In this document: in pieces, positions 14,219 to 60,249 of the stretch
Numbering within the stretch: position 1 is the first letter of the stretch
How the letters are laid out: the number at the start of each line of letters is the position of its first letter
Assembly (NCBI GenBank): GCA_902766045.1
Contig: CACXCA010000002.1
Span: 62,001-126,000, forward strand
Reading direction: 5' to 3'
Length of the DNA: 64,000 bases
DNA from: an uncultured Bacteroidales bacterium
GTDB lineage: Bacteria; Bacteroidota; Bacteroidia; Bacteroidales; Paludibacteraceae
The notes under the pieces: model-generated
The model's input: the letters and a program-made list of their open reading frames with translations, nothing else
Told to the model about the DNA's origin: nothing
The model's database searches: none
Position numbers and translations under genes: made by a program

Positions 14219-16009
14219 ATGAAAAACAAACAAATTATACGCATAGCTTTATGTATGCTCTGTTATTTGGGTGCCACTTTCTTTATGAAAGCTGACCCAG
14301 ATTCTAATTTTCATATTTATCTCTGCTTTGGTCAATCCAACATGGAAGGAAACGCCTCCGTTCCTAATTCAGAAAAGGAAGGGGTGGACGAACGTTTTCA
14401 GATGTTGTACACAGCCGACGATTGTTCCAGAGGAGACCGCAAGAAAGGTCAATGGTACACCGCCATTCCACCTTTAGCTCGTTGTTTCCATGACAATAAC
14501 ATCGGATTCGGTCCTGTCGATTACTTCGGACGTACCTTGGTAGCGGAACTCGATCCTAGCATTCGTGTGGGTGTCGTTGTTGTAGCTTGCGGTGGATCTG
14601 ACATTGCATTGTTCGAAAAAGATAAATGCGAAAACTATATCAGAACAGCAGCCGATTGGTTACAAAGCTATGCCAGAGCGTATGGAAACAACCCTTACAA
14701 GAGACTTATGGAGATGGGAAAAGAGGCACAAAAAGTGGGTGTCATCAAAGGAATCCTTATCCATCAGGGCGAAAACAATAACGAACAAGAGGATTGGCCA
14801 GTTCGCTTGAAAGGCGTATATGAAAACATGTTGAACGATCTTGGTTTGAATGCTGCTGAGGTTCCATTACTTGTCGGTGAAGTTCGTCACTCTGGTCCTT
14901 GCAGTGGTCATAATAGAATCATCGCAAACGTACCTAACGTTATACCTACCGCTTATGTAGTCTCTTCTGAAGGATGTGAAGCTGCCTTCGACCAATACCA
15001 CTTCACAGTAGAGGGATACAAAGAATTAGGTAGACATTATGCTCAAAAGATGTTGGAATTATTAGGAGACAATCCAGTTCAACAATCTTCTCTTTCTCTC
15101 TCAACCATTCTTAACCAAGAATCAGAGCCTGGAGAGGTAAGTATAACCGTAAATTATGACGCAGAGGTTATCCAACGTGTGGAGATCTATGCAGACAACG
15201 AACGTATTGCTGAAGGAGACTCCTATGTATGGGAAAATATCTTAGAAGGCTCCCACTCCATCTGGGCTGTTGGATATGATAGCGACAATAAAGAATACAC
15301 TACGCCTAAAAAGACCATAAAAATTCTTCCAGAACAGAAACCATACAATGGAACACCTGCCAAAATTCCTGGCATTATCGAAGCGGAAGAATTCGACTAC
15401 GGAGGTGAAGGAAACGCTTACCACGATAACGACGAACAAAACCGCAACGGTGGCGACCGTAACGAAGGCGTGGATATGAACAATACCGCTATCGGATACC
15501 TCCAAACGGGTGAATGGCTCGAATATACAGTAGAGGTAGAAAAAGATGGCGAATACGAAGTGGAATGTCGGGTGGCTTCCAAGGGAACATCGGGTTCCTT
15601 CACACTCTACATGGACAATACCTTTATCATCCCTGGCGACGATGGTACCCCAGGTGGTTTCGTCAAAGTGCCTAACACGGGTGATTACGAATCATTTGAA
15701 ACGGTGACTGTCAAGTTGAATAAATTAACCAAGGGCAAACATGTGTTAAAGCTAGAAATCACAGGCGATTGGTTTGATTTAGACAATCTGAAATTCAACC
15801 TGATTCAAGAAGATACGAATGTTGACTTAACATTCTCTGATCTAAATGAAATCCCAGCAGGTGATTACTACGTATTCGACGTACTAGGCAGATACATTAA
15901 GATGATCACTATCAATCGAAATAATTCTGAACAATTAAATTCTGGTTTCTATATCTTAAAGAATGACAAAGGAAATTCATACACGTTGCTGATAAGTAAC
16001 AACAAATAA
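14219..16009 (+). CDS. Secreted SASA/CE6-type carbohydrate esterase with CBM6 and T9SS-like C-terminus
   Basis: 596 residues. Residues 1-25 are a signal peptide. Residues ~30-285 form an SGNH-type esterase of the sialate/acetyl-xylan esterase class: nucleophile block GQSNMEG with S40, HQGE at 182-185, and the catalytic DQYH with D258 and H261. It probably removes acetyl groups from plant or host glycans. Residues ~295-370 look like a bacterial Ig domain (RVEIYADNERIAEGD, HSIWAVGYDSDNKEYTT). Residues ~385-525 are a CBM6-like carbohydrate-binding module (IEAEEFDYGGEGNAYHD). The last ~60 residues (YVFDVLGRYIKM, then SGFYILKND) resemble a T9SS type A sorting domain, implying surface export. It has a tandem paralogue downstream with a nearly identical CBM sequence. 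Confidence 0.9.
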   Translation: MKNKQIIRIALCMLCYLGATFFMKADPDSNFHIYLCFGQSNMEGNASVPNSEKEGVDERFQMLYTADDCSRGDRKKGQWYTAIPPLARCFHDNNIGFGPVDYFGRTLVAELDPSIRVGVVVVACGGSDIALFEKDKCENYIRTAADWLQSYARAYGNNPYKRLMEMGKEAQKVGVIKGILIHQGENNNEQEDWPVRLKGVYENMLNDLGLNAAEVPLLVGEVRHSGPCSGHNRIIANVPNVIPTAYVVSSEGCEAAFDQYHFTVEGYKELGRHYAQKMLELLGDNPVQQSSLSLSTILNQESEPGEVSITVNYDAEVIQRVEIYADNERIAEGDSYVWENILEGSHSIWAVGYDSDNKEYTTPKKTIKILPEQKPYNGTPAKIPGIIEAEEFDYGGEGNAYHDNDEQNRNGGDRNEGVDMNNTAIGYLQTGEWLEYTVEVEKDGEYEVECRVASKGTSGSFTLYMDNTFIIPGDDGTPGGFVKVPNTGDYESFETVTVKLNKLTKGKHVLKLEITGDWFDLDNLKFNLIQEDTNVDLTFSDLNEIPAGDYYVFDVLGRYIKMITINRNNSEQLNSGFYILKNDKGNSYTLLISNNK

Positions 16010-16241: not shown

Positions 16242-18047
16242 ATGAAAAATAAAAAACTCACACTAATAGCTGTATGCTTAGTTTGTTTTCTAAGTGCAAC
16301 TTTTACAATAAAAGCTGCCCCAGACCCTAATTTTCACATCTATATTTGTTGGGGACAATCCAATATGGAAGGAAATGCACCTGTACCAACTTCTGAGCAA
16401 GTAAATGTAGATGAGAGATTCCAATTGCTATACTCTGCGAATGATTGCAGGAACGGAGACCGCAAAAAAGGGCAATGGTACACTGCCATTCCACCTTTAG
16501 CTCGTTGTTTCCACGGAAGTCAAAGTAACGGACAAAGTATGGGATTCGGTCCTATTGATTACTTCGGACGCACCTTGGTCGAGAAATTGGACCCCGCAAT
16601 CAAAGTGGGAGTCATCGTAGTGGCTGTCGGTGGCGCCGACATTCAACTGTTTGAAAAGAACAACTACCAATCGTATCTTAATTCCGCTGCAGACTGGTTG
16701 CAGAATTATGCCAAAGAATATGGCAGTAACCCTTATGGGCGAATCATCGAGATGGCAAAAATTGCTAAAGAAGTGGGTGTCATCAAAGGTATTCTCGTTC
16801 ATCAAGGAGAGACAAACAGCGGTCAAAACGATTGGCCGAGACGTCTGAAAGGTGTCTATGACAATATGTTGTCCGACCTTGGTTTAAAAGCTTCTGAGGT
16901 ACCTCTATTGGTAGGTGAAGTACGTTATACGGGTCCTTGCAGCGGACATAACAATGTTATCCGTACAGTGCCTAATACAATACCTACCGCCCATGTGATT
17001 TCTGCTGACGGATGCGGTGCTGCAGGAGATCAATATCATTTTAACGTGGACGGATATAAGCTATTAGGAAAACGTTATGCAGAAAAGATGTTAGAGCTTT
17101 TAGGTGACAATCCAGTTCAACAAGTTGACCTCTCTATTTCTGCAGCTGTTACGGTAGAATCAGAACCAGGAAAAGTTCAAATCTCTCTAAACAAAGAAAA
17201 CGACAACATAAACAGAGTCGATATCTATGCAGATGGCAATAAGATAGCTAGCAACCAACTATCTTACGAATGGGAAGATGTTGAACAAGGAGACCATACT
17301 ATTTGGGCTGTCGGCTACGACAACCAAAACAAAGAGTACACAACATCGAAGATTAAGATTACCATCATGAAACCACAAACCCCTTTCAATGGTTCTCCCG
17401 CTAAAATTCCAGGAACAATAGAAGCGGAAGAATTTGACTACGGAGGTGAAGGAAACGCTTACCACGATAACGACGAACAAAACCACAACGGTGGCGACCG
17501 TAACGAAGGCGTGGATATGAACAATACCGCTATCGGATACCTCCAAACAGGTGAATGGCTCGAATATACAGTAGAGGTAGAAAAAGATGGCGAATACGAA
17601 GTGGAATGTCGGGTGGCTTCCAAGGAAACATCTGGTTCCTTCACGCTCTACATGGACAATACCTTCATCATCCCTGGCGACGATGGTACCCCAGGTGGAT
17701 TCGTCAAAGTGCCTAACACGGGTAGTTACGAATCATTTGAAACGGTGACTGTCAAGTTGAATAAATTAACCAAGGGCAAACATGTGTTAAAGTTAGAAAT
17801 CACGGGCGATTGGTTTGATTTAGACAATCTGAAGTTCAACCTGATTCAAGAAGAAACGAATGTTGACCTGACAATCTCTGATTTAAATGAAATTCCAGAA
17901 GGAGATTATCAAGTATTCGACATGCTCGGTAGATACATAAAAACGGTCACCATTCAAAGGAATAATTATGAGCTGTTCAATGCAGGATTCTACATTTTGA
18001 AAAACAAAGAAGGAAAATCATACACACTGCTGAGAGGTAGTAAATAA
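16242..18047 (+). CDS. Secreted SASA/CE6-type carbohydrate esterase, tandem paralogue
   Basis: 601 residues with the same architecture as the preceding gene: signal peptide, esterase with GQSNMEG (S40), HQGE and DQYHF, Ig-like domain, CBM6-like module and T9SS-like C-terminus (VFDMLGRYIKT, AGFYILKNK). The esterase and Ig parts have diverged clearly, e.g. an extra GSQSNGQSM loop near residue 90 and different substrate-loop residues. The CBM-coding DNA (17421-17867) differs from 15380-15826 at only about 14 of 447 positions. This points to recent domain transfer or gene conversion. The two enzymes likely act on related but not identical acetylated glycans. Confidence 0.9.
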   Translation: MKNKKLTLIAVCLVCFLSATFTIKAAPDPNFHIYICWGQSNMEGNAPVPTSEQVNVDERFQLLYSANDCRNGDRKKGQWYTAIPPLARCFHGSQSNGQSMGFGPIDYFGRTLVEKLDPAIKVGVIVVAVGGADIQLFEKNNYQSYLNSAADWLQNYAKEYGSNPYGRIIEMAKIAKEVGVIKGILVHQGETNSGQNDWPRRLKGVYDNMLSDLGLKASEVPLLVGEVRYTGPCSGHNNVIRTVPNTIPTAHVISADGCGAAGDQYHFNVDGYKLLGKRYAEKMLELLGDNPVQQVDLSISAAVTVESEPGKVQISLNKENDNINRVDIYADGNKIASNQLSYEWEDVEQGDHTIWAVGYDNQNKEYTTSKIKITIMKPQTPFNGSPAKIPGTIEAEEFDYGGEGNAYHDNDEQNHNGGDRNEGVDMNNTAIGYLQTGEWLEYTVEVEKDGEYEVECRVASKETSGSFTLYMDNTFIIPGDDGTPGGFVKVPNTGSYESFETVTVKLNKLTKGKHVLKLEITGDWFDLDNLKFNLIQEETNVDLTISDLNEIPEGDYQVFDMLGRYIKTVTIQRNNYELFNAGFYILKNKEGKSYTLLRGSK

Positions 18048-21041: not shown

Positions 21042-21782
21042 TCACATACGGCAAAAATCCTGTACACAATTGTACCGATAACGTGAATGTGATTGGATAG
21101 AAACCCCAATGTTTGTCCAATACGCATCCAATATATTCTTTCGATGTCCCACATCAGGATAATTCTCATCAATCAACAACTGGATCACGATATCCAACGC
21201 ATCTTCACGACCATAATGACAATTTTCACCCACCCGTGAAGCTTTCGAAACAAACTTCTGTATTCTAGCAATACCATCCGTTCCATCTGATGATGAGTGA
21301 CCGATGAGCCCATGCTGCCCCATATCCTTTGCATGATAAGCAGCCGCATCACATAACGTTTTCATCGGCTGTAACATATATCTATTTTTAACATTCTTCA
21401 AATCAACATAATACAACGATTGCAAATCTTTACTAGCCGTCATATTAAGTTTATTTTTTCTGATATACGGCCTAAGGTACTCTATCAAGAAACGATTACC
21501 ATCCAAGCGAGCCAAATTACACAAGAAAACTACCCTTTTCTCTTCATCAGTCATATAATCCACGGCAGCAGCTGTATTAGCCATCTCCTGCTCTTCTGCT
21601 GTAAACAACGAATTGGCTTTAGATGGTTTCCATACATTTCCCGACTCTTCATGTACAATATTATCTACATTTGCCGTATTACTATTAATATACGTGGCAG
21701 ACTCCTTGCTATCACATGAAATCATGGACAAACAAAGAGTCATTCCACAACACGTCAAAATCAGACACAAATGCCTTTTCAT
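21042..21782 (-). CDS. CAP-domain (SCP/PR-1) lipoprotein
   Basis: 246 residues. The signal peptide ends in a lipobox, SMIS-C23, predicting a lipid-anchored envelope protein. After a linker, residues ~65-246 form a CAP domain: ELxxANTAA-like start (EEQEMANTAAAVDYM), LFLCNLARLDG, LCDAAAYHAKDMGQHGLIGHSSSDG (first His), GENCHYG and GHRKNILD (second His), ending in NCVQDF. CAP proteins have varied roles including peptidase-like and sterol or lipid binding; the bacterial members are poorly characterised. It lies 25 bases after its paralogue on the same strand and is probably co-transcribed with it. Confidence 0.9.
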   Translation of the reverse strand: MKRHLCLILTCCGMTLCLSMISCDSKESATYINSNTANVDNIVHEESGNVWKPSKANSLFTAEEQEMANTAAAVDYMTDEEKRVVFLCNLARLDGNRFLIEYLRPYIRKNKLNMTASKDLQSLYYVDLKNVKNRYMLQPMKTLCDAAAYHAKDMGQHGLIGHSSSDGTDGIARIQKFVSKASRVGENCHYGREDALDIVIQLLIDENYPDVGHRKNILDAYWTNIGVSIQSHSRYRYNCVQDFCRM

Positions 21783-21807
21783 CGTATCTAAACTAAACTT
21801 TTAATCT

Positions 21808-22545
21808 TTAAAGCTTTGCAAAATCCTGTACGCAATTATACGTATAAGATGAATGTGGCATAATAGAAACGCCGATATGATTGTACTTATCACTAAGAAT
21901 ATTCTTTCGATGGCCTAAAGAAGAAATATTTTCATCAATCAGCAGATTCATTACAATATATATTGCATACTTTCTATTGGAACCGTAAGTGCAATTCTCT
22001 GCCAAAGCATACCAGGAAGGCACAAAACGTTCCAATCGCTCATCCCAGTCCGTTCCATCGGAAGAAACATGACCTGTGATACCATTCTCCCCCGAATCTT
22101 TTGCGTGATATGCAGCTGCATCACACAATTCTTTCGACGGACGTAACATTACATGATCTTTCACTTCACGCAAATCTGTATAAAGAGAAGCAAGATACTC
22201 ATTTGTCTCCACATTCAATTTATTCTTTTCAACGTATGGAGTAAGATACTCCTCGGCAAAACGTTCCCCATCCAAACGAGCTAAATTACAAAGGAAAATC
22301 ACCTTTTTCTCCTCCTCTGTCAAATAATCGACATCGGCAGCAGTATTCGCCATAGCCAGTTCCTCGTCCGTATAGAGCGAAACCACCTCAGGTTCGGGTT
22401 CTTCTCCTTCGTCTATTTTAGTCGAATCATTCTGTGTTTCTTCTGGAGTGTCGTTCAAAATCGTATCAATCTCCTCTTCGACACATGATACCATCATACC
22501 AAAGAGTATCACGCCTGACAATAAAATCGTTAATAATTTCCTCAT
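21808..22545 (-). CDS. CAP-domain (SCP/PR-1) lipoprotein, tandem paralogue
   Basis: 245 residues with the same plan as the downstream gene: lipobox MMVS-C21, an acidic and Pro-rich linker (EGEEPEPEVV), and a CAP domain carrying ANTAADVDYL, LFLCNLARLDGE-like motif, AKDSGENGITGHVSSDG, AENCTYG and GHRKNILSDKYNHIGV. The two mature domains are clearly homologous while their linkers differ. First gene of the pair; a minus-strand -7 box at 22578-22585 supports the start and a shared transcript. Confidence 0.9.
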   Translation of the reverse strand: MRKLLTILLSGVILFGMMVSCVEEEIDTILNDTPEETQNDSTKIDEGEEPEPEVVSLYTDEELAMANTAADVDYLTEEEKKVIFLCNLARLDGERFAEEYLTPYVEKNKLNVETNEYLASLYTDLREVKDHVMLRPSKELCDAAAYHAKDSGENGITGHVSSDGTDWDERLERFVPSWYALAENCTYGSNRKYAIYIVMNLLIDENISSLGHRKNILSDKYNHIGVSIMPHSSYTYNCVQDFAKL

Positions 22546-25874: not shown

Positions 25875-25916
25875 AAAAAAGTCCGCAATGTGGACAAGAA
25901 AAAAACATTGCGGACT
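25875..25916 (-). terminator. Terminator of the 25938-28302 cassette
   Basis: AGTCCGCAATG (25880-25890) pairs with CATTGCGGACT (25906-25916). On the minus strand the stem runs into six T. It starts 21 bases after the stop at 25938. Confidence 0.9.
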
Positions 25917-25937: not shown

Positions 25938-27830
25938 TCACCGAGTCACGACCCCTTCTGTCGCCTGTGAAAAATCAACTACAAACTCTACTTCATCCAC
26001 CACGAAACGATATTTCTGTTTCTTCAATCCCTGCACCTTCGTGGTGATGTCATAGACACACTGACACCTGCAGATATCACCAGTTTGATATCCTTTGATA
26101 ATAATGGCGTTCTCCTCTAATGTCGTCATTGATGCCACCTCCCCACAACATGTAAGTTTCACATCGTAAGAAACTATAATACACTCTTTCGTCAGAGGAT
26201 CATATTTATATGAGACCAACGTATCCGTGCGTTCCGCATGACCATCAGAATAATATAAACCTCCTCTTGAGCGATCTGGTTCTTTATTCCCCTCTGCATC
26301 ACTTCCGCCTTTGCATTGACTACTTTTCATAAATATACCTCTTGGCTCATTCATGATAACTCCTTCGTAAATCACGCCAGAGAAAGGGCCGTAATCGATG
26401 TCAAACTCTGTTCCATCAACAATAAAATGATATTTCTGAGGACGCATGCCGTACAATTTAGTGGTAACATCAAACGTACACATACATTTGCATGCCACAT
26501 CAGCCTTGTCTATGGTATTTATAATAATTGAATCATTCTGGATTGTCACCTTAGAATCCAACTCTGCACAACAATTGTAAAGCAAATTGTATGACACTAT
26601 CTCACCCTCACCCGTTAGCACATTAAAGCGATAGGAAACCAATGTGTCTGACTTCTCATGTCTTATCGCAGTAGGCTCTACTTCCTCCACTCCTTTGTCA
26701 TTATCGAACAAGGAATTCTTACATTCGCTACTTCCATAGAACTTACCTCTTTCTCCTCTTAGGATAACACCAACTTCTCCATATGTAGAGGATGTCATAT
26801 CAACGTCAAACACAGTACCATCCACCACAAAAATATAACGTTTTCCCTTCAAGTTCTCCACTCTTGTAGTAACGTCATATAAACAATCGCAACCACACGC
26901 TGACTCCGCTTCATATGAATTAATATAGACAGTATCCTTTGATGCCCTCACATTGGAGAGTATCTGTCCTGGACAGCAATTAAATTCTCTGTCATGAGAG
27001 ACAACCTCACATGCTCCAGGCTCTATAATATAGGTTACCAATGTATCTCCCTTTTTCAAATATCCATAATCGAAAGTTGTGCCAATATTATCTCCTTGTT
27101 CATCAGGAGTTGCTTCTTCCATAAGATTACTTTTACATGGACTGTTCTTTACAAATGCACCCGTTGGAAGATCGAGAAAAGCTCCAGTCTGGACTTGCGA
27201 CAAATCAATGTCATAATTCTTTCCGTCTAGTTTCAAACAATATTTGATAGCCTCAATGTTGCTCAACTCAACAGCTAAGTCAAAACAACAAATGCAATTG
27301 CATATTGCTTCACCCAATTGTACAGGTTGAACCGATATTGTATCCTTCACAGTGGAAAGATTCATACTCCAACCTTCACCACAACAATTTCCGTAATAAG
27401 AGAAAACTTTAAGAGTCAACTGTTTCTCTTTGGAATCATACTTATAAGTGAAAATAGTGTCGTTTTCTGCATTTAACTCACTTACAAATGGATTCGCAGG
27501 ACTATTACTATTATCATCTATCGAATAAATTAACTCCTCACCGCCTATGCATCCACCAACTCTTTTTATCGTTCCATTAACGCCATGTTTATCTGAGAAA
27601 TAGATTCGATTCAGATTTTCTACTTGATATGCATATCTATAATGTCCATTGGCAAAAATAATCACTTGACGAGAAGAATCGACATGAGCAACAGAATCGA
27701 TCATATTTACATCATAAACATGTTTGATACTATCACCATTCAAGATCTCGTCAACAAACATTGTTTGTGCGTATGAAACCGAAACACCGCACATCAAAGC
27801 CATAAGGCCTGTTAGTATATATTTTTTCAT
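25938..27830 (-). CDS. Secreted protein with four cysteine-rich repeats, unknown function
   Basis: 630 residues with a signal peptide cleaved after SVSYA (about residue 21). Residues ~25-95 hold a beta segment (QVIIFANGHYRYAYQVENLNRIYFS) that recurs in other secreted proteins here. The rest is about four tandem units of roughly 125-140 residues. Each contains NCC or TCC, then a CxCxC block (CNCIC, CGCDC, CKCMC, CRCQC) followed by (F/Y)D(V/L/I)(T/A)T, KYxFxVDGxxFDVD and an acidic loop with a further Cys. Isolated CxCxxD-type blocks of this sort occur in small Bacteroidota surface proteins (from memory); four in one chain is unusual. The cysteines could form disulfides or bind metal. It has no C-terminal sorting domain. 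It is translated 4 bases after the small partner gene at 27835-28302. Confidence 0.7.
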   Translation of the reverse strand: MKKYILTGLMALMCGVSVSYAQTMFVDEILNGDSIKHVYDVNMIDSVAHVDSSRQVIIFANGHYRYAYQVENLNRIYFSDKHGVNGTIKRVGGCIGGEELIYSIDDNSNSPANPFVSELNAENDTIFTYKYDSKEKQLTLKVFSYYGNCCGEGWSMNLSTVKDTISVQPVQLGEAICNCICCFDLAVELSNIEAIKYCLKLDGKNYDIDLSQVQTGAFLDLPTGAFVKNSPCKSNLMEEATPDEQGDNIGTTFDYGYLKKGDTLVTYIIEPGACEVVSHDREFNCCPGQILSNVRASKDTVYINSYEAESACGCDCLYDVTTRVENLKGKRYIFVVDGTVFDVDMTSSTYGEVGVILRGERGKFYGSSECKNSLFDNDKGVEEVEPTAIRHEKSDTLVSYRFNVLTGEGEIVSYNLLYNCCAELDSKVTIQNDSIIINTIDKADVACKCMCTFDVTTKLYGMRPQKYHFIVDGTEFDIDYGPFSGVIYEGVIMNEPRGIFMKSSQCKGGSDAEGNKEPDRSRGGLYYSDGHAERTDTLVSYKYDPLTKECIIVSYDVKLTCCGEVASMTTLEENAIIIKGYQTGDICRCQCVYDITTKVQGLKKQKYRFVVDEVEFVVDFSQATEGVVTR

Positions 27831-27834
27831 ACGC

Positions 27835-28302
27835 TTACTCCTTTATAAGTTTAACAATCTGTTCGTTGATTTTCAAAACATAGATGCCCTTTATATTAGG
27901 CAAGGTCATCTGAACAGTTTCACCTGATTGAGATGACTTTATCTCTATCAGCTGTCCCAATACGGAGAAAAGAGCCACTTGAGAATTTTCTTTCAACCCT
28001 TCAATTTGAATGTGCTGATTATCTAAGTATGTAACACGCACCTCGTTCGATTCAACACTCGACATTTCCGATGGTTCTCCATCTTCAAAGTAATACTTTT
28101 TAACCTTTGCAAACGGATATGCCGTAGAGACACTTCCATTGATTACCAGACTATCATTCTTATATTGGAAAGTCGGAGACTCTGCCAATACAAATGACTT
28201 TTTTGTAAAATCGCTGAATTCAACCGTTACCTGAGACGGTTCTGCGAGCATGGTACTACCAAGTCCCATTAAACTCAAAAGAATTAAACCTGTCTTTTTC
28301 AT
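27835..28302 (-). CDS. Small secreted protein with T9SS-type C-terminal domain; cassette partner
   Basis: 155 residues. Signal peptide to about MLAEP (residue ~21). Residues ~22-75 form a beta motif (VTVEFSDFTKKSFVLAESPTFQYK, then AFAKVKKYYFED-like). Residues ~85-155 resemble a type A T9SS sorting domain: QIEGLKENSQVALFSVLGQLIEI, then IKGIYVLKINEQIVKLIKE. Almost nothing besides the sorting-like domain is present, so it is not a normal cargo. It precedes the four-repeat protein in one transcript. The same small-then-large arrangement recurs at 57923-60249. Role unknown. Confidence 0.7.
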   Translation of the reverse strand: MKKTGLILLSLMGLGSTMLAEPSQVTVEFSDFTKKSFVLAESPTFQYKNDSLVINGSVSTAYPFAKVKKYYFEDGEPSEMSSVESNEVRVTYLDNQHIQIEGLKENSQVALFSVLGQLIEIKSSQSGETVQMTLPNIKGIYVLKINEQIVKLIKE

Positions 28303-28465: not shown

Positions 28466-30037
28466 TTATTTGATTACAGAAGCACCAGACACTCCATCTG
28501 ACTGATAGATCATCTCCCCTCGATAATTAGCTTTTAGAACTTCCGCCTTATCAACTAACTCATTCAACTCTATAGGAGTCATCTTCACATCATTCGTTCC
28601 AAATTCCGGAGCATTATAGTTTTTCATCATATCACGGTCAAACAAAGGATCCTCATGAGGCAGTTGAAAACGTTTATGCGCTATTCCTTCATTATCAAAA
28701 TAAGACAAGAACAAACGAGTATATGTTCCATCCACACGAGAAGAGACCAAAATCCACCGTCCTGTATTGGACCAATCCCCTATTCCTTCCGCACGTTCTG
28801 TGTTAATAGAATCCAACGGAAGTGCTTGTTTTTTTTCTAAATCATATATATACAAATCAGCATCAGGATGTGAATAATGATACCCTCCAAAATCAGACAG
28901 TGTAAATAAGACATAGCGATTATCCGGTGAAATCTTAGGTTTTGAAACACTCTTTCCCTCCGCTGTTGCATGATACACCATTTCTGGCTTACCCCAAGTC
29001 AAAGAATCTTCTTGAAAGGCAACTCTCATCAAATCATATTTCATATTCTTGTACAATAGAACATTCTGATTGTTCAACAACGAATCACTACTGCAATAAT
29101 ATACATACTTACCATCGGCCGACCAATAAGGATTCATCTCCATTTGATGCGGAGTCTGTAGAATATAACTGACCTCATTTCTCTCTATGTCATACATGAG
29201 CAAATCGGAATAGAAATCCAATGGTTCGATTTTTGAATCAGCCTTTGACATAAACAACTGCATAACCTTATTATTGGAAAATGCTATATAAGGCTTCGTT
29301 GGATGCCAGGCAGAAAAGACGGCAGATACTCTCAAATCACCCACCTTAGTATCCACAAACTGTGTTTTACCATTGTATGTCAACACCATACCACCCACCT
29401 TTCCTCTACAAAAAAAGAGCGCATTTCCCGAACCATTCCGTTGTTTCGTATGACAGTTTACGCACTTAGGACCGTCTTCGCGCGAGACATCATCTATAAA
29501 CCGTTTGTTATCAGCCAAGTCTTTGTATGTTCCATTCTCAAGATTAAACTGAGACAAAGTAATTCTACCCACTGCATTATAAAGCGGTTCGATTAACCGA
29601 CACGTCACATACGGATCGATACTATCGGCTACAACTGTCCACTTAAAACTTGGATACTTATAACAGGTGTTCTTCTTTTTCATATAGACATCCACCCATA
29701 ATGTTTTTGAAACATTCTCTGACATGATTTTATTCCATTCTTTTTTAGAAAAACAGAACTTTCTATCATCATCCGACATTGTCAAAAGAGCATTTCCTTC
29801 CGATGATTTAACACATACCCACCAACAATCAGCTTGATTATCCACCACAAAATTCAATGGTGCAATATTCTGTGGAATAATAATATTTTTATAGTCAGGA
29901 TAGATTTTCAACGTATCCTCCTGCACATCCACATACTGCTTTGGCAACGATGATGTACATGATACCATAACGGATAAATTCAACAAGAACCATCCTATTG
30001 TTTTATATAATCTTTGTGTATGTATTCTTCTCTTCAT
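28466..30037 (-). CDS. TolB-like beta-propeller lipoprotein with single CxxCH, copy B
   Basis: 523 residues. A signal peptide with lipobox VMVS-C27 predicts a lipid-anchored protein. An N-terminal Ig-like part (about 40-150) is followed by a c-type-heme-like motif KCVNCHTKQRN near 195 and then a TolB/PD40-type propeller with repeats such as ADGKYVYYCSSDS, SPDNRYVLFTLSDFG and WSNTGRWILVSSRVDG. The single CxxCH could attach heme covalently, or bind metal if the heme machinery is absent. It is the last gene of a minus-strand series and lies one base from the preceding membrane-protein gene. Paralogue of 31832-33373. Bacteroides relatives are annotated TolB-like translocation protein (from memory); real function unknown. 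Confidence 0.78.
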   Translation of the reverse strand: MKRRIHTQRLYKTIGWFLLNLSVMVSCTSSLPKQYVDVQEDTLKIYPDYKNIIIPQNIAPLNFVVDNQADCWWVCVKSSEGNALLTMSDDDRKFCFSKKEWNKIMSENVSKTLWVDVYMKKKNTCYKYPSFKWTVVADSIDPYVTCRLIEPLYNAVGRITLSQFNLENGTYKDLADNKRFIDDVSREDGPKCVNCHTKQRNGSGNALFFCRGKVGGMVLTYNGKTQFVDTKVGDLRVSAVFSAWHPTKPYIAFSNNKVMQLFMSKADSKIEPLDFYSDLLMYDIERNEVSYILQTPHQMEMNPYWSADGKYVYYCSSDSLLNNQNVLLYKNMKYDLMRVAFQEDSLTWGKPEMVYHATAEGKSVSKPKISPDNRYVLFTLSDFGGYHYSHPDADLYIYDLEKKQALPLDSINTERAEGIGDWSNTGRWILVSSRVDGTYTRLFLSYFDNEGIAHKRFQLPHEDPLFDRDMMKNYNAPEFGTNDVKMTPIELNELVDKAEVLKANYRGEMIYQSDGVSGASVIK

Positions 30038-30038
30038 C

Positions 30039-31823
30039 TTACTCTTTTATTGATTGAAATTTATGTGTATCCATAATATAAAATAAGACATAACTGCCTT
30101 TGTACTTGCGACATAACTCCGATGTATCCGTTTGTTTGTTTTGTTGAAGTAAATAATACTCCCGAAGGCAACTTACCACCTTATTGACAACATTACCGTT
30201 CACTTGTAACGCTTTGACATACGTATCATCATTGGTTTGTGTTGCATACAAGACTGCCGCTTCCGACATATATTGATACAAATCTTTTTTATCCTTCACA
30301 TAAGTAAGGTAGTCATTCAAAGCTCCTTTTATATCCTTTACAAATAATTTTGCAAGCACACATCTTTTCAAATTATCATTATTAAATCGATTATAGGCTA
30401 AATAATACTCCGCTAAATTTGCAAAGACATTCTGAGGGACATCCTGTAAAACTTCATTGCCTTTTATCTTTTTACAAATAGGATATTTCTTATAGAGCAA
30501 CTCCTTATTATTCAAATATGTAGCGTATTCATCGGCTAAATCATCTAAAAAAGAGGTCTGTTTCATCAAATAAATATACCTTGCAGCCAATTCATCATCG
30601 CCCCTTAATAAAGATATAAAAGTCATATTCTTCAGATAACGGAACGATTCACCATAAATCACCCAATTATCCATATTCTGATGATAACTTGCCGCCAAGA
30701 ATGAAGCATAAAAAGTAAGGTCTGCCTCATAAACAATCTCTTCTATCTTATATGGAGACGAGCAAGGAGATAATGGCATATTTACATCAAATAGTTTTTC
30801 ACATTCCTTTCCAAAGTTTCCTTGTGCAATGACACGGTATGCATTAATACCTTTTGTCGGATGTGCTATATCCTTACATTGCTCCACAATTTCTCTCCAC
30901 TTCATCTCATCACATAGACGAGAAAGTTTCATCAACGAACGATAATTCGTTTCATGAAAGGACACAAAGTAAATCAACACAAAAGAACAAAGTAATAGCA
31001 CCAACGAATGGAACGGAAATTTCCGATAAAACGTATCCAATACAGGTATCTCAATCTTCTTAATCAACGGAGAAACAATCAAACAACACAACAAGCATAG
31101 CGAACAGACAAACATCCTGGTGAAATAAGGATCCGGCAAAGGCATTCTCAACGCATACACAAAGGATTCACCATAAAAAAAGTGCGAAACGACATATATC
31201 TCACCGACTGCCACACCCAAAGGTAACAATAAATAGCAAAGTAGTAGTAATCCCTTCTTTTTCTCCAAATATTCCTCGACAGCAATCATCACAATGGAAA
31301 GCATCGAAAAGACACCCAAAACAGGAAGCAACACCAACTGAACAATCAGCATCACATAAGCCATGTTCTTCCCTTTTAAAAACTTATCATACAGCAGATA
31401 GCTTATCAAACACCAGATAGTGCCAAGAATCAAAGCAAAAAAGGTTCCAATTTCAAATCGTGCATAGATAGCCCAACCTCCGCAACCGATGACAATAGTC
31501 AGAAGAATTGATGGCAAGAACGAGAAACCAGACTTTCTTTTGTCAAACAAGTACTCATGCAGTGCGACCATCCCAGTCAAGACGGCTGCCACACTTATTG
31601 CCCCAATCAATGGATAGTGGAATAATAGACTCAGAAAACGAGCAATGTATAACAGAACGCCACAACTCTGTGAAATGGTCTGTTGGGTAAAAAACGAATT
31701 GAACAAGAAATAGTTTTTCCAACCGACCTGATAAAGGAAATCGTAGTTATATATTCCTAAAAAGAGTACTACTCCAATAAAGAATATTACCTTGCTCAAC
31801 CTGCTTATTATCTTTTTGTTCAT
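30039..31823 (-). CDS. Polytopic membrane protein, DUF6057-like, copy B
   Basis: 594 residues. About ten membrane helices fill residues 10-320, and a soluble, helical C-terminal region (about 325-594) has repeated tyrosine-rich motifs (NMDNWVIYGESFRYLKNMTF, LAEYYLAYNRFNNDNLKRCVLAKLFVKD) that suggest TPR-like hairpins. I believe this is the Bacteroidota family DUF6057; the label is from memory. It pairs with a TolB-like lipoprotein gene and is a clear paralogue of 33401-35233. Membrane protein and propeller lipoprotein probably form one envelope complex (inference from repeated pairing). Confidence 0.75.
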   Translation of the reverse strand: MNKKIISRLSKVIFFIGVVLFLGIYNYDFLYQVGWKNYFLFNSFFTQQTISQSCGVLLYIARFLSLLFHYPLIGAISVAAVLTGMVALHEYLFDKRKSGFSFLPSILLTIVIGCGGWAIYARFEIGTFFALILGTIWCLISYLLYDKFLKGKNMAYVMLIVQLVLLPVLGVFSMLSIVMIAVEEYLEKKKGLLLLCYLLLPLGVAVGEIYVVSHFFYGESFVYALRMPLPDPYFTRMFVCSLCLLCCLIVSPLIKKIEIPVLDTFYRKFPFHSLVLLLCSFVLIYFVSFHETNYRSLMKLSRLCDEMKWREIVEQCKDIAHPTKGINAYRVIAQGNFGKECEKLFDVNMPLSPCSSPYKIEEIVYEADLTFYASFLAASYHQNMDNWVIYGESFRYLKNMTFISLLRGDDELAARYIYLMKQTSFLDDLADEYATYLNNKELLYKKYPICKKIKGNEVLQDVPQNVFANLAEYYLAYNRFNNDNLKRCVLAKLFVKDIKGALNDYLTYVKDKKDLYQYMSEAAVLYATQTNDDTYVKALQVNGNVVNKVVSCLREYYLLQQNKQTDTSELCRKYKGSYVLFYIMDTHKFQSIKE

Positions 31824-31831
31824 ACCAAATG

Positions 31832-33373
31832 TTATTCGTATTTTATGATGGATGCACCTGTATTTCCATCTGTTTTCTCAACATCACCTTTAAATGAAGG
31901 AGTGACAGGTGCGTTATCCTCTAATATTTTATATATGTCTGAAGCAGTATATTTTACATCTACCGTACCGAATTCGGGGTAATTGTAATTTTTCAGAAGA
32001 TTTTTGTCAAAGAGTGGATCTTCATGAGGCAATTGGAATGCCTTATGTGCTGTCCCAGTCGTATCAAAATAGGAAAGATATAATCGGGCATAACTACCAT
32101 CTTCTTTGCGGGATCCGACCATCAGCCAGCGACCATTTGACGACCATGTAACATATCCTTCGGCTTGTGGAGAATTCAATGCTTCTATCGGTTTACATTC
32201 ATGTGTTGTCAGATTCAGTAAATAAACATCTGAATCTATATGTGTATAATGATATGCACCATATTCGGAGATAGTCATAGCTATGTATTGATTATCAGGT
32301 GAAACCTGCGGTTTAGATACACTCTTATTATTTCCTGATGCATTATAGATTCGTTCCGGTGCTCCCCATGACATAGATTGCTCATCAAAAGGAATTCGCA
32401 TCAAGTCATATTTCATTGATTTGTATTTATCTATTTTGAAAAGAGTATCGGATGAACAATAGTAAAGATATTTTCCGTCGGCCGACCATATTGGGTATGT
32501 TTCGCTTTGGCCTTTTGTTTTTATGATATAGCTGATTTCATTCTTTACAATATCGTATTGTAGGATGTCTGAACGCCAGTCAAAGGCTTCTATTTTATTG
32601 GGATCTCTTGATCCGAACATTTGGCGTACCGTATTATTAGAAAAAACGATTAATGGTAGAGACGGATGCCAACGTTCGTAGATAGCAGGCATTTCCATAT
32701 CACCCACTTTAGTTGAAATAACCTTGGTCTCTCCATTGTATGTTACCAGCATACCACCACCTTGCGCACGAAATTGAAAGACACTGTTTTCTGGATTATT
32801 TCGTTGTTTGTTATGGCAGTTCATACAGGTTTGATATGCTCCGAGTGAAGGGTCCTTTTTAAATAGATGATTGTCGGCTAATGTTTTTAACCCGCCATTT
32901 TCAATATCATATTGATAAATTCCTATATTACCCGTACTCTCGTATGAAGGTTCAATCCAACGATAGGTGACATATTTGTCGATAGAATCTTTTGCAATGA
33001 TTAACTGGTAAGATGGGAAATGCTTCCATTGTGATTCGTCTTTTAGATAGACATCCACATTCAGTTGTTCTCCCGCATGGTTGTGAAGAAGCTTTTTCCA
33101 TTCTTTTTCGGAAAATTGTATGGTTTTATTCGTTCCCTCAGAAAGAATTGTTTCACCATTCGCAGCTGTTAATTGAGCAATACATTTTTCTCCTTTATTT
33201 AACACCTCGAAATTTAGTGGCATTATATTGGATGGAATCGTAATATTCTGATAATCAGGATACGTTATTAATGAATCATTTGTCTCTTGAAAAATGGCAG
33301 GGACAGTGGATGTACAAGCTATCATATAGAAAGCTGTCAGTATGGTACTTGTTAATTTAATGATCTTGTTCAT
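31832..33373 (-). CDS. TolB-like beta-propeller lipoprotein with single CxxCH, copy A
   Basis: 513 residues. Lipobox MIA-C20 predicts lipid anchoring. The layout matches copy B: Ig-like N-terminus, TCMNCHNKQRN near 182, then propeller blades (ADGKYLYYCSSDT, SPDNQYIAMTISEYG, WSSNGRWLMVGSRKEDG) and a conserved end PQLPHEDP-like (AFQLPHEDPLFDKNLLKNYNYPEFGT). The CxxCH and the QRN that follows are retained in both copies, which argues that the motif is functional. The gene lies 27 bases after the 33401-35233 gene and 8 bases before the next membrane-protein gene, so the four genes look like one transcript. Confidence 0.78.
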   Translation of the reverse strand: MNKIIKLTSTILTAFYMIACTSTVPAIFQETNDSLITYPDYQNITIPSNIMPLNFEVLNKGEKCIAQLTAANGETILSEGTNKTIQFSEKEWKKLLHNHAGEQLNVDVYLKDESQWKHFPSYQLIIAKDSIDKYVTYRWIEPSYESTGNIGIYQYDIENGGLKTLADNHLFKKDPSLGAYQTCMNCHNKQRNNPENSVFQFRAQGGGMLVTYNGETKVISTKVGDMEMPAIYERWHPSLPLIVFSNNTVRQMFGSRDPNKIEAFDWRSDILQYDIVKNEISYIIKTKGQSETYPIWSADGKYLYYCSSDTLFKIDKYKSMKYDLMRIPFDEQSMSWGAPERIYNASGNNKSVSKPQVSPDNQYIAMTISEYGAYHYTHIDSDVYLLNLTTHECKPIEALNSPQAEGYVTWSSNGRWLMVGSRKEDGSYARLYLSYFDTTGTAHKAFQLPHEDPLFDKNLLKNYNYPEFGTVDVKYTASDIYKILEDNAPVTPSFKGDVEKTDGNTGASIIKYE

Positions 33374-33400
33374 TGTATTTCCACTAATTTTTATGGTTGA

Positions 33401-35233
33401 TTATTTGAGGGAATAATTTATATAATCTTCTGTATTAAACACATAGTAGTATGCGTATGTATTTTTGTATTTTTTATACAGTCGTTCTGAAGCTGCTTCC
33501 ATTTGAGCTTTATTACAACGGCTGACCTCATCCACTAAGCTTTTAACCATATAAAATAGTTGTTGATCTATTGGTGCTATTTTAAGATAGGATGGATCAT
33601 TTTTCATTAAAGCATACAAAATCAATGCTTCTTGCATATACTGAGGCACATTAGGATATCTTTTTGCTAACAATGTGAAATATTTAACAAAATGATCTAA
33701 GTTCTTCATATACAATTCAGCCAGTAAACGTCTTTCTATATTATCGCCATCCAAGTAATTAAATTTGAGGTAGTTTTTAGCAAAAAACGAATGAGCTGAT
33801 AAGATACGATCCTCTTTCATGAAATTAATTTTCACTCTTGCGTAATCAGGATAATCAGCATAAAATGCTTTTTTATTCTTCAAATATGCTTCATATTTAT
33901 CTGCCGCATCGCGAAGGAAGAGAGTCTGTTTTAATATATCAATGTAGCGTTTAGCTAACTCGTCATCATCCATTATAATGGCCAATTCAATAAAATATCT
34001 TAATCCTCGATAATTTTCTCCAATAGTTACCCACTGCTCCATATTTAGCTGACGGGCAACCGAAAGGAAAGAACCATATAAGAATAAATCATTGTAATAA
34101 ATAATCATATCAGAGGAAACGTCCGATGGATTGGGAAGAAAAGGCATCTTCATTTCAAACAGATGTTCTTTCAGTTGGTTTGTATTAGCCAAAGCTACAA
34201 CACGGAATGCATTTTCCGTATGAGTTATTTGATTGTTTGTGGATATATTCTTTAAAACACTCTTCCAATCTTTTTCATCCACCAAACGTGCCAGTTTCAT
34301 TTCATGTCTGAATTGTTGACTGGTCTTGTTCATTATTCCATAGCTTATAATAGCCACTTCTGCCAATATAACAACAACAGTTCCAATTTTAGGTAGTCCT
34401 TTTGTCCTGTGTTTCATCCAAATCATGAGTAGTAAGCTCAACATAAACGAAACGTTTATTATCAACAGATCCTTAAAGTATGGGTCTGACAAAGGAGAAA
34501 ACAACACATGCCAGTATCGTTCATTGTAATTGAATTGTATGCAGAAATAAGGTAACAGGAAGAATAACACAATCTGTATAACCAGCATCCATTTCTGTTG
34601 TTGAAGTACCTCGTCAAGAGCGACCATTAGCATTGGAAGAATTGCAAAAATTCCTATATAAGGGTACAAAAGAATCTCTACCAATAAGAAAAGTGAGGCT
34701 TTCATCCAATAGCTTTTCGCTGTCATCTCCCCTTTGCTTATTTTTATCCTATGATACAGACTATATTGGATAAATGTATATAGGGTGCCTACGAGGGTGG
34801 CAAAATAAAAGCCCATTTCGAAGACTGCAAAGATAGAATAGTTGACAGACAAAAAGAGCATGAGTAAAAGAACAGAGGGTAAATATGTTAAGGGAACATA
34901 CTTCTGTTGTTTGTCGAATAGCCACTGAACCATCAGCTGAATAGATGATAGAATCACTGAGATTAGCAAGGAAACAAGCCATGGATGGTAAAACAGTTGA
35001 TTCAGGTATCTTCCAATATATTTCATCCATCCTGCAGACTGGTTCACGGTTTCTTCGGCAAAAACTGGATTATCGATAAAATAATTCCGCCAAAAGAACT
35101 GATACAAAACATCTTTGTAAACAACACATAAAATAATGAAACAGAAGCCAAAAAATAGGGCTCTGATTATCCATGGCAATCGTTTATCTACCAAAATGTT
35201 ATTTATATAGTTACTTTTCGTTCGCTGTTCCAT
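33401..35233 (-). CDS. Polytopic membrane protein, DUF6057-like, copy A
   Basis: 610 residues; about ten membrane helices (residues ~25-320) and a C-terminal helical domain with the same motif order as copy B (QLNMEQWVTIGENYRGLRYF, FAKNYLKFNYLDGDNIERRLLAELYMKN, ending YKKYKNTYAYYYVFNTEDY). Both copies carry the Trp/Tyr-rich YQFFWRNYF or YQVGWKNYF near residue 45. It begins 11 bases after the phosphatase gene, so it may be read from the helicase/phosphatase promoter. Function unknown. Confidence 0.75.
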   Translation of the reverse strand: MEQRTKSNYINNILVDKRLPWIIRALFFGFCFIILCVVYKDVLYQFFWRNYFIDNPVFAEETVNQSAGWMKYIGRYLNQLFYHPWLVSLLISVILSSIQLMVQWLFDKQQKYVPLTYLPSVLLLMLFLSVNYSIFAVFEMGFYFATLVGTLYTFIQYSLYHRIKISKGEMTAKSYWMKASLFLLVEILLYPYIGIFAILPMLMVALDEVLQQQKWMLVIQIVLFFLLPYFCIQFNYNERYWHVLFSPLSDPYFKDLLIINVSFMLSLLLMIWMKHRTKGLPKIGTVVVILAEVAIISYGIMNKTSQQFRHEMKLARLVDEKDWKSVLKNISTNNQITHTENAFRVVALANTNQLKEHLFEMKMPFLPNPSDVSSDMIIYYNDLFLYGSFLSVARQLNMEQWVTIGENYRGLRYFIELAIIMDDDELAKRYIDILKQTLFLRDAADKYEAYLKNKKAFYADYPDYARVKINFMKEDRILSAHSFFAKNYLKFNYLDGDNIERRLLAELYMKNLDHFVKYFTLLAKRYPNVPQYMQEALILYALMKNDPSYLKIAPIDQQLFYMVKSLVDEVSRCNKAQMEAASERLYKKYKNTYAYYYVFNTEDYINYSLK

Positions 35234-57722: not shown

Positions 57723-57922
57723 TATAATAGAATTGTACTATTTCTTTTTTCCATAAATGATTTTATCATTTTTTCATCTTCATCCACCTTGTGCATCAAA
57801 TTAAAGATAAAATTCTATATGTGCAACAAAGAAAATAAAATTTTATGCAAAATAACACATATTTCAAAAAAAATTAGTAGATTGCAAAACTTTTATTATT
57901 TTTATTTAAACCGTTGAGAACC

Positions 57923-58414
57923 ATGTTTACACACAAAGAAACTCTTTTCTTTGGAGGAATTTTATTGTGCACAGGAGCCATCTGGGCGAATGACACAGCG
58001 ACCACCAAAGTAATCGTAAAAACAGAGAAGGAATCGACAGAGTACAACATGTACGATTCAGGTAAAATGTACTTTTCAGAAGATTACTTAGTATTAGACC
58101 CCATGGGTGATAGTAATCTGAAAAAGGTCAAGTTGGCAGAGATTCAAAATCTGCAGTTTTCACCCCTCAGCAGTTCTGGCATAAAGGATGTGCAAAGACT
58201 ATCAAACCGGATTTATCCCAACCCGGTAACAGAGCAGTTGATCATTCTCTCTGACGAAGAGGAGGATTTCTATTATTCCATCTATTCTATTGATGGGAAA
58301 TTAGTTTCTTCCGGACGCAGTCGGACAGGAGAAGTTATCAATGTAGCGTCTTTAGCAACAGGAATTTATGAAATTAAATTTAACAACCAGAACCTTCGAT
58401 TTATTAAACAATGA
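57923..58414 (+). CDS. Small secreted protein with T9SS-type C-terminal domain; cassette partner 2
   Basis: 163 residues from ATG 57923; a TTG nine bases upstream is in frame but unneeded. Signal peptide to about IWAND. Beta motif VIVKTEKESTEYNMYDSGKMYFSEDYLVLD and VKLAEIQNLQFSP. From about residue 90 a type A T9SS sorting-like domain: RIYPNPVTEQLIILSDEEEDFYYSIYSIDGKLV, then LATGIYEIKFNNQNLRFIKQ. Like 27835-28302, it is little more than a beta motif plus a sorting domain. Its stop overlaps the downstream start by four bases (ATGA). Confidence 0.75.
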   Translation: MFTHKETLFFGGILLCTGAIWANDTATTKVIVKTEKESTEYNMYDSGKMYFSEDYLVLDPMGDSNLKKVKLAEIQNLQFSPLSSSGIKDVQRLSNRIYPNPVTEQLIILSDEEEDFYYSIYSIDGKLVSSGRSRTGEVINVASLATGIYEIKFNNQNLRFIKQ

Positions 58415-60249
58415 AAAAAATAGTAACATTTGCTATAGCTATGTGTATCATTTCATTAGCCTTAGCACAAAACAGCATGAATTTCCATTTCAACAATGGT
58501 AAAAAAGAGAGTATTAACATCGCAGACATTGATACAATACATTTCCCTATTGGAGAAATCAATGTGACAGGCAAGGTAAGAAAGAATTACGCCATCACAA
58601 GTATTGACAGTGCCACCTTTACATTAAAAGGGAATCAGACCATGGAAGCAAAAAACTTCTCTGATACGGTAAATGGTGTCATCATAGACATGGTATATGT
58701 TGAAGGAGGCACATACATTCGTGGATGTGACAACTGTGCAGAAGTGGACAAGAAATACGAGTCGCCTAGTCATCAGGTGACAGTTAGCGACTTTTACATC
58801 GCCAAATACGAAGTGACCAACGAATTATACAATGCCGTAATGGGAACTACCTCCAATTTTTGGGAGAAGAAGAAAGCGCCTAAGATTGGAGTCAACTGGT
58901 TTGGTGCGAATGAGTTCATTTGCAAGCTTAATGAGTTGACAGGCAGGAACTATCGTCTGCTCACGGATGCAGAATGGGAATTTGCCGCACGAGGAGGAAA
59001 CCAAGGCATACCCAAGAATCACAAATTCTCAGGCAGTAACAACATTGATGAAGTGGCATGGTATGCCGACAATAGTGGCGGGCAATCACACGAAGTGGGC
59101 ACGAAAGCGCCTAACGAATTAGGGCTATATGACATGAGTGGCAACTCATGGGAATGGGTCTATGACTGGCTGATTGGCTATACAGAAGAGGCCAAGACAA
59201 ATCCCGTGCAACTGACAGGATCAGGTAACAAGACGAGAAGAGGGGGCAGTTATGATGAACCAGAAGATTTTGCCAGAGTGAGTCGTCGCGCCATTCGATC
59301 AAGAGACGGAGCTGCTGGCATGGGACTTCGCTTAGGGTTATCTACAACTGTGCTTGATGGCATGAAAGAGCCCTGTGTAGCAGCCAATCCACAAGCAACC
59401 AAATGTGACGGAAGTGAATATCGCGACTGTCGTCTGATTACAGGAGAAGATGAAGCATGGGTAGGCGAAAGTGCCACCCTACTCTTGCAAGAAGATGGAG
59501 CAGCGGCCATATCTGGGTATCCCGTGGTGTCAGGAGAATGGTACACATTAAACAACCGTTCTTTGAACATTGTCTCCAGCAAAGGTGTCACTACGACCTA
59601 TGCATACTACGTGTTTAGTGAAGACGAGATTACAATGATCAACGACGCAGGTATGCCATACCGACTATACAAAAAAGCAAAATCAGAATCCAAATCACTG
59701 CCGACGATTCCGACAATAACAAATCCTACTGCTTTAGAGAAGTTAATCGAGGCAGTAGAACCAGAACGATTTGTCACTGCAGAGCAATTGGCACATCCGG
59801 ACACAACTGTTCGGGACCCAAGAATTATGGCAGATGATGGATATACATGGTTTATGGATGGAAGATGCTGTGGAGGAAATCACAAATACAGGTTCCATCT
59901 ATCACCTAACGGAGATGCCGAATTTGTGGTAATGGATTATGACGACACGTACAAAGAAAACATTTTAGCAAAAGGCAGATGGTTTACGGTCGGTAATATT
60001 GCACTTCATATCATGTTAAATGGCAAATATTACAACTATCTGTACACGTCAGGGACAAGAACATTCTCGAACAGCGAGTATTTACCAGAAGGCCCTATTT
60101 TCTGCCACATCTCCTTCCAAAGTTACGAGCGAGGAGATTTCAGAATCTTTAGTCGCACAAAATACGATGACAAGGTAAAACGACCAAGAGGATTCAACGG
60201 AGAGAATCCAATACACGATCCCGTTGAGTATCAACCCTATTCAGAATAG
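58411..60249 (+). CDS. Secreted SUMF1/FGE-fold protein
   Basis: 612 residues. Signal peptide (about 1-20), then a short segment NFHFNNGKKESINIADIDTIHF that repeats the beta motif of the partner gene. Residues ~90-310 are a formylglycine-generating-enzyme-like domain: MVYVEGGTYIRGCD, FYIAKYEVTNELYNAVMG, YRLLTDAEWEFAARGG, ELGLYDMSGNSWEWVYDW, RRGGSYDE and GMGLRLG. The two catalytic cysteines of true FGE near the C-terminal RxGGSF region are not present, so it is probably a binding or structural member. Residues ~330-612 hold two lipocalin-like beta domains with several Cys (GRCCGGNHKYRFHLS). No sorting domain of its own. Confidence 0.8.
   Translation: MKKIVTFAIAMCIISLALAQNSMNFHFNNGKKESINIADIDTIHFPIGEINVTGKVRKNYAITSIDSATFTLKGNQTMEAKNFSDTVNGVIIDMVYVEGGTYIRGCDNCAEVDKKYESPSHQVTVSDFYIAKYEVTNELYNAVMGTTSNFWEKKKAPKIGVNWFGANEFICKLNELTGRNYRLLTDAEWEFAARGGNQGIPKNHKFSGSNNIDEVAWYADNSGGQSHEVGTKAPNELGLYDMSGNSWEWVYDWLIGYTEEAKTNPVQLTGSGNKTRRGGSYDEPEDFARVSRRAIRSRDGAAGMGLRLGLSTTVLDGMKEPCVAANPQATKCDGSEYRDCRLITGEDEAWVGESATLLLQEDGAAAISGYPVVSGEWYTLNNRSLNIVSSKGVTTTYAYYVFSEDEITMINDAGMPYRLYKKAKSESKSLPTIPTITNPTALEKLIEAVEPERFVTAEQLAHPDTTVRDPRIMADDGYTWFMDGRCCGGNHKYRFHLSPNGDAEFVVMDYDDTYKENILAKGRWFTVGNIALHIMLNGKYYNYLYTSGTRTFSNSEYLPEGPIFCHISFQSYERGDFRIFSRTKYDDKVKRPRGFNGENPIHDPVEYQPYSE

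Follow-up and report, generated by a model that had tools for sequence, protein, structure and literature searches.

In the genome of an uncultured Bacteroidales bacterium of the Paludibacteraceae, we identified two-gene units in which a small protein carrying a type A C-terminal sorting domain (CTD) of the type IX secretion system (T9SS), hereafter mini-CTD protein or mini, is encoded directly ahead of a larger protein that has a signal peptide but lacks a sorting domain. That this unit is a real and widespread arrangement is very well supported. We consider it probable (roughly 60%) that the two proteins together make up one split T9SS substrate, the mini supplying the sorting domain in trans; binding, co-export and anchoring of the partner are what we infer. 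The unit first came to attention at positions 25938-28302 of the window, i.e. the whole stretch of 64,000 nt that was analysed (contig CACXCA010000002.1, positions 62,001 to 126,000).

A small sorting-domain protein and its Cys-repeat partner

The mini of this unit (27835-28302, minus strand) has 155 aa and consists, as the sequence-only reading had described it, of little besides a signal peptide (residues 1-20, 28243-28302, minus strand; MKKTGLILLSLMGLGSTMLA|EP), a beta module (residues 22-76, 28075-28239, minus strand) and a T9SS type A sorting domain (residues 98-154, 27841-28011, minus strand). Signal peptides were assigned throughout by a simple hydrophobicity rule or by eye rather than by a trained predictor such as SignalP. 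Model TIGR04183 matches residues 98-154 with 28.1 bits (cut-off 23) over its positions 12-71 of 72, and PF18962 gives 19.5, under the Pfam cut-off of 27, so the sorting domain is divergent. Weak Ig/filamin-like and Hfq-like resemblances of the chain, returned by Foldseek against the PDB, were not used.

The source genome is a 3.35-Mb draft whose nearest named relatives, judged by a gene of a mini/partner locus, are forestomach and rumen Paludibacteraceae MAGs. It encodes SprA (2379 bits), PorU (997 bits) and PorV (474 bits) and contains 74 sorting-domain matches, and T9SS export is therefore expected to work. About 12 of these matches lie in proteins of only 150-190 aa. With a TIGR04183-type domain above the curated cut-off, a Sec signal peptide (by sequence reading and simple hydrophobicity) and the T9SS machinery in its own genome, the 155-aa protein is a probable T9SS type A substrate, with a predicted SprA/PorU-dependent secretion. 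The window also holds two near-cut-off sorting-domain matches (about 22-23 bits; 15830-15982 and 17868-18026), located C-terminally in two adjacent 600-aa proteins.

The start of the partner gene lies 4 nt after the stop of the mini gene. Its product (25938-27830, minus strand; 630 aa) has a Sec-type N-terminus (MKKYILTGLMALMCGVSVSYA|QT, by eye), an N-terminal beta module right behind the signal peptide (residues 22-80, 27591-27767, minus strand; assigned by profile, with six strands at residues 23-78 and a pLDDT of about 80), and four Cys-rich repeats of ~100 aa each (CC...CxCxC...YxFxVDGxxFxVD; 25944-27458, minus strand), which DSSP of the model places in predicted beta domains at residues 125-229, 263-367, 396-503 and 537-629. 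The AlphaFold model as a whole is all-beta (pLDDT 71), and a Foldseek search of the PDB returned nothing below E 0.001. No T9SS CTD model matched the protein, bearing out the earlier description of a secreted protein lacking a sorting domain of its own, whether of type A, B or C. Nor does it appear to be a surface lipoprotein: the cleavage site is SPI-like (VSYA|QT), and the lipobox heuristic is negative for a Cys after the signal peptide. The identities Lsr2 (Pfam) and DpsA (NCBIfam) were rejected, as their matches are far under the cut-offs.

Downstream of the partner gene is a terminator-like hairpin with a T run (25880-25916, minus strand; MFE -18.8 kcal/mol, z -4.8), and a pattern scan near the end of the mini gene returned just one weak 5-pair hairpin candidate, which together fit a single operon. 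Elsewhere in the window, 28466-35233 holds a tandem duplicate of another two-gene unit (a PD40-propeller protein with a CxxCH motif, CVNCHTK or CMNCHNK, plus a DUF6057 membrane protein), and 21042-22545 two tandem paralogues with a YkwD/CAP-like domain and lipoprotein-signal-like N-termini.

Two paralogues of the Cys-repeat protein in the same genome (G000:C22 and C11) have a single repeat, no mini and a lipobox. Their mature chains start with CKKDE and CEKDE, which we take to resemble the lipoprotein export signal of Bacteroidota. This suggests that without a mini the Cys-repeat domain may reach the surface by a lipid anchor instead. A single-repeat Cys lipoprotein is also encoded ~3 kb from sprA (L036, 1381-1869); its resemblance to the BamJ family is weak (E 0.006, far under the cut-off).

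Recurrence of the pair and diversity of the partners

The source genome contains ten mini and partner pairs, two of them inside the window (25938-28302 and 57914-60249) and the others at C69, C20, C81, C17, C62, C27, C2:56.2k and C71:24k. In each the mini gene comes first, followed by a CTD-less signal-peptide gene, mostly overlapping by ATGA. The second pair of the window, on the plus strand, consists of a 166-aa mini (57914-58414; TIGR04183 45.6 bits at G000:C2:120211-120411) and, after a 4-nt overlap (ATGA), a 612-aa partner (58411-60249) with a signal peptide, a beta module (96.4 bits with the N-module profile), an FGE-sulfatase-like domain (PF03781, 119.7 bits) and no sorting domain.

A profile search of twelve congeners recovered several full-length minis in each. 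The resulting genus set comprises 96 minis, from genomes G000-G012 of the genus and from one further genome, G014. For 89 of them a CTD-less signal-peptide gene begins no more than 25 nt downstream, and in 51 cases the two genes overlap by exactly 4 nt. Outside the genus a partner lies within 60 nt of 36 of 41 minis and within 124 nt of 39; over all 137 minis, the exact 4-nt overlap occurs 64 times. The gene-order comparison proposed with the sequence-only reading thus came out in its favour, homologues of the small gene being mostly found next to a secreted gene. Two of the seven exceptions in the genus set (L091 and L092) are followed by a CotH-like partner at a distance of a few hundred nt, which exceeded the limit of our script. 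The other five (L022 at G000:C18, L047, L048, L093 and L102) form a conserved group of minis without adjacent cargo.

None of 29 large CTD genes is followed by a signal-peptide gene within 60 nt (Fisher p about 4e-23, a value to be read knowing that related species are not independent samples and that the controls are the CTD genes of the fetched loci). We regard the pairing of mini-CTD and partner genes as well supported. In one congener, four mini and cargo pairs are clustered in a single 20-kb stretch (L084, 6400-26399 of G012:C111).

A sample of 295 Bacteroidales genomes searched with the profile yielded full-length minis from dozens of genera, spread over roughly 30 families or more. SprA was present in 42 of 42 tested mini-bearing genomes outside the genus and also in nearly all mini-free genomes tested, so this co-occurrence serves as a consistency check only. 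Among 395 genomes drawn from the phylum, matches to the mini at E 1e-20 were confined to its own genome and one other, and at that sensitivity the family looks largely restricted to Bacteroidales.

The sorting domain is confined to one side of the pair: 19 of 20 minis match TIGR04183 (E 0.01), and the T9SS sorting-domain models match none of 47 dissimilar partners. Nearly all partners also lack a lipobox (heuristic). The domains found in these 47 are typical of surface or secreted proteins and comprise Cthe_2159 (9), FISUMP (5), CotH (3), GH43, pectate lyase and heparinase-like domains, as well as C10 peptidase (one with a Spi-type inhibitor domain), LRR, FGE, esterase, PETase-like, fasciclin and lamin-tail domains. 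Since the partners of other minis belong to so many unrelated families, the Cys repeats by which the pair had originally been named are incidental to the arrangement.

Homologous beta modules and the case for sorting in trans

The earlier observation of a beta motif common to both proteins extends to homology of whole modules. Aligned with hhalign, the mini and partner modules match over 54 columns (of 57 in the mini module), near full length and in the same order, with an E-value of 8.4e-8 and a score of 34.8, against 10.5 for the best of 150 column shuffles. With gap-rich columns kept, one of the first 20 shuffles reached a high probability; none of the 150 did after removal of those columns. 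Neither module showed similarity to the CTD in hhalign. Six strands, the last of them preceded by a short turn, make up each module in two AlphaFold models; for the mini module, modelled in the orthologous L123 protein, it is a short HHH turn that comes before the sixth strand. These comparisons indicate that the two modules are homologous.

A strict regular expression of the motif matched just 44 of 89 partners, and profiles were used instead. When tested on partners of other lineages, the partner-module profile built within the genus picks out 33 of 41 N-termini (E 0.01), against none of 39 internal segments of those partners and two of 39 shuffled sequences. In proteins of two other Bacteroidales families (L209 and L210), a LamG-like cargo, a beta module and a CTD are joined in one chain. 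As in the mini, the module there directly precedes the CTD; the difference is that module and CTD form the C-terminus of the cargo itself.

The source genome also encodes about seven proteins with an N-module and a signal peptide, and with neither a CTD nor an adjacent mini (L141, L143, L145, L146, L148, L153 and L154), one of them a 3-repeat Cys protein. From their sequences we take the others to include one GH53-like, one GH5-like and one esterase-like protein and a paralogous family of 460-474 aa. Such orphan N-module proteins could reside in the periplasm, leave by other means or depend on an orphan mini; conversely, the conserved group of minis without adjacent cargo might serve them.

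In the mechanism that we favour, both proteins would cross the inner membrane by Sec and, having been made from the same message, would associate in the periplasm, most likely via their homologous beta modules. The T9SS (SprA/PorV) would then recognise the CTD of the mini and the complex would cross the outer membrane, after which PorU would cleave and attach the mini. The partner would end up on display at the surface or be released there. A single small carrier module would in this way serve many unrelated cargos, each with its dedicated copy.

The trans role proposed by the sequence-only reading is the most likely one, because homologues of the small gene mostly have an adjacent secreted gene and the two proteins share a homologous module. 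Contact between the two is less certain. Homologous modules may share ancestry without binding each other. Across different cargos, alignment-based covariation between mini and partner modules is weak (0.14), and the CTD control is stronger (0.31). A pairwise measure gives 0.22, equal to the CTD control within the genus; only outside it do the modules alone covary (0.31, versus -0.03 for the CTD control). Similarity of mini modules tracks that of partner modules above permutations, its size and the comparison with the CTD depending on the measure. AlphaFold of an in-frame orthologous pair (L123, its stop read as Gly) gave a pTM of 0.35 and no confident arrangement or interface.

The mini by itself is a complete T9SS substrate, and it could therefore be an anchor rather than an exporter, secreted and attached alone and holding through the beta modules a partner that arrives by another route. 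The homology of the modules and the existence of orphan N-module proteins without a mini agree with this. However, no second route is apparent for partners that lack a sorting domain and, nearly always, a lipobox, and the -4 overlap, a close translational coupling, suggests that the two are assembled before they are exported, which makes an anchor unlikely. We judge it somewhat less likely again that the genes are merely co-expressed, the mini being an independent secreted protein and the partner remaining periplasmic or leaving otherwise, with a common process and no contact between them. The weak covariation and the lack of a confident predicted interface speak for such an arrangement, but dozens of unrelated partner folds alongside a constant mini fit a carrier better than a common process, and homologous modules occur in both proteins.

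A mini that is small, co-translated and secreted might also be a periplasmic chaperone, quality-control protein or inhibitor that guards its partner before export and is then itself cleared by the T9SS, and some partners are indeed enzymes, including the C10 peptidase with a Spi-type inhibitor domain. Yet a sorting domain of its own would be needless unless the complex is exported, and non-enzymatic repeat proteins are partners too; we hold this to be improbable. Least credible by far is that the pairs are remnants of an ancestral fusion of cargo and CTD broken by frameshift or sequencing error. The order cargo-module-CTD does exist in the fused L209 and L210, but in the pairs the CTD is encoded ahead of the cargo, and both genes code for a signal peptide and a module of their own. 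The gene order is moreover kept across many families, which rules out a split-gene artefact; an old gene split is possible as the origin of the pairs.

Known systems and implications for the T9SS

The mini shares with T9SS type A substrates (TIGR04183 / PF18962) a Sec signal peptide, a type A CTD and a genome with SprA, PorU and PorV. In type A substrates described so far, however, cargo and CTD form one chain, whereas in our pairs the CTD belongs to a small protein of its own and is absent from the cargo. For T9SS type B substrates, the cognate partners are PorP/SprF-like shuttle proteins (PMC9143113, PMC12618676). There too a substrate is co-encoded with a dedicated partner that matters for export or anchoring, but the CTD is on the cargo and the partner is an outer-membrane barrel, whereas the mini is itself a substrate with a type A CTD. 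A further parallel is Tat 'hitchhiker' export, in which a signal-less subunit is carried folded by a signal-bearing one (Ni-Fe hydrogenase, PaoABC; PMC9251779, PMC4273604), and peroxisomal piggyback import, in which a partner transports a subunit without a signal (PMC9251779). The mini pair would likewise consist of a signal-less subunit riding with a signal-bearing one, and its outer-membrane signal is indeed found on a single, co-encoded subunit. The membrane and the machine are different, and mini and partner would each cross the inner membrane by their own Sec signal peptide. No description of a T9SS signal or carrier acting in trans was found in the open-access papers searched (subscription journals and preprints not included), and the novelty of such a signal is limited to that literature.

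We see about even odds that these pairs represent a general trans-acting sorting system of Bacteroidales, in which small carriers, about ten per genome in this genus, would lend their T9SS signal to dedicated unrelated cargos via paired homologous beta modules and the T9SS would export the complexes. At present it is the cargo's own CTD by which T9SS substrates are recognised. If split substrates exist, the T9SS would have to pass protein complexes, a requirement for which the mini and partner pair offers a simple two-gene test of the transport range of SprA. The set of T9SS substrates would also be larger than CTD searches show, and inventories of surface proteins compiled for Bacteroidales, from the rumen and elsewhere, would lack an entire class, among them glycoside hydrolases, pectate lyases and CotH-like and adhesin-like proteins.
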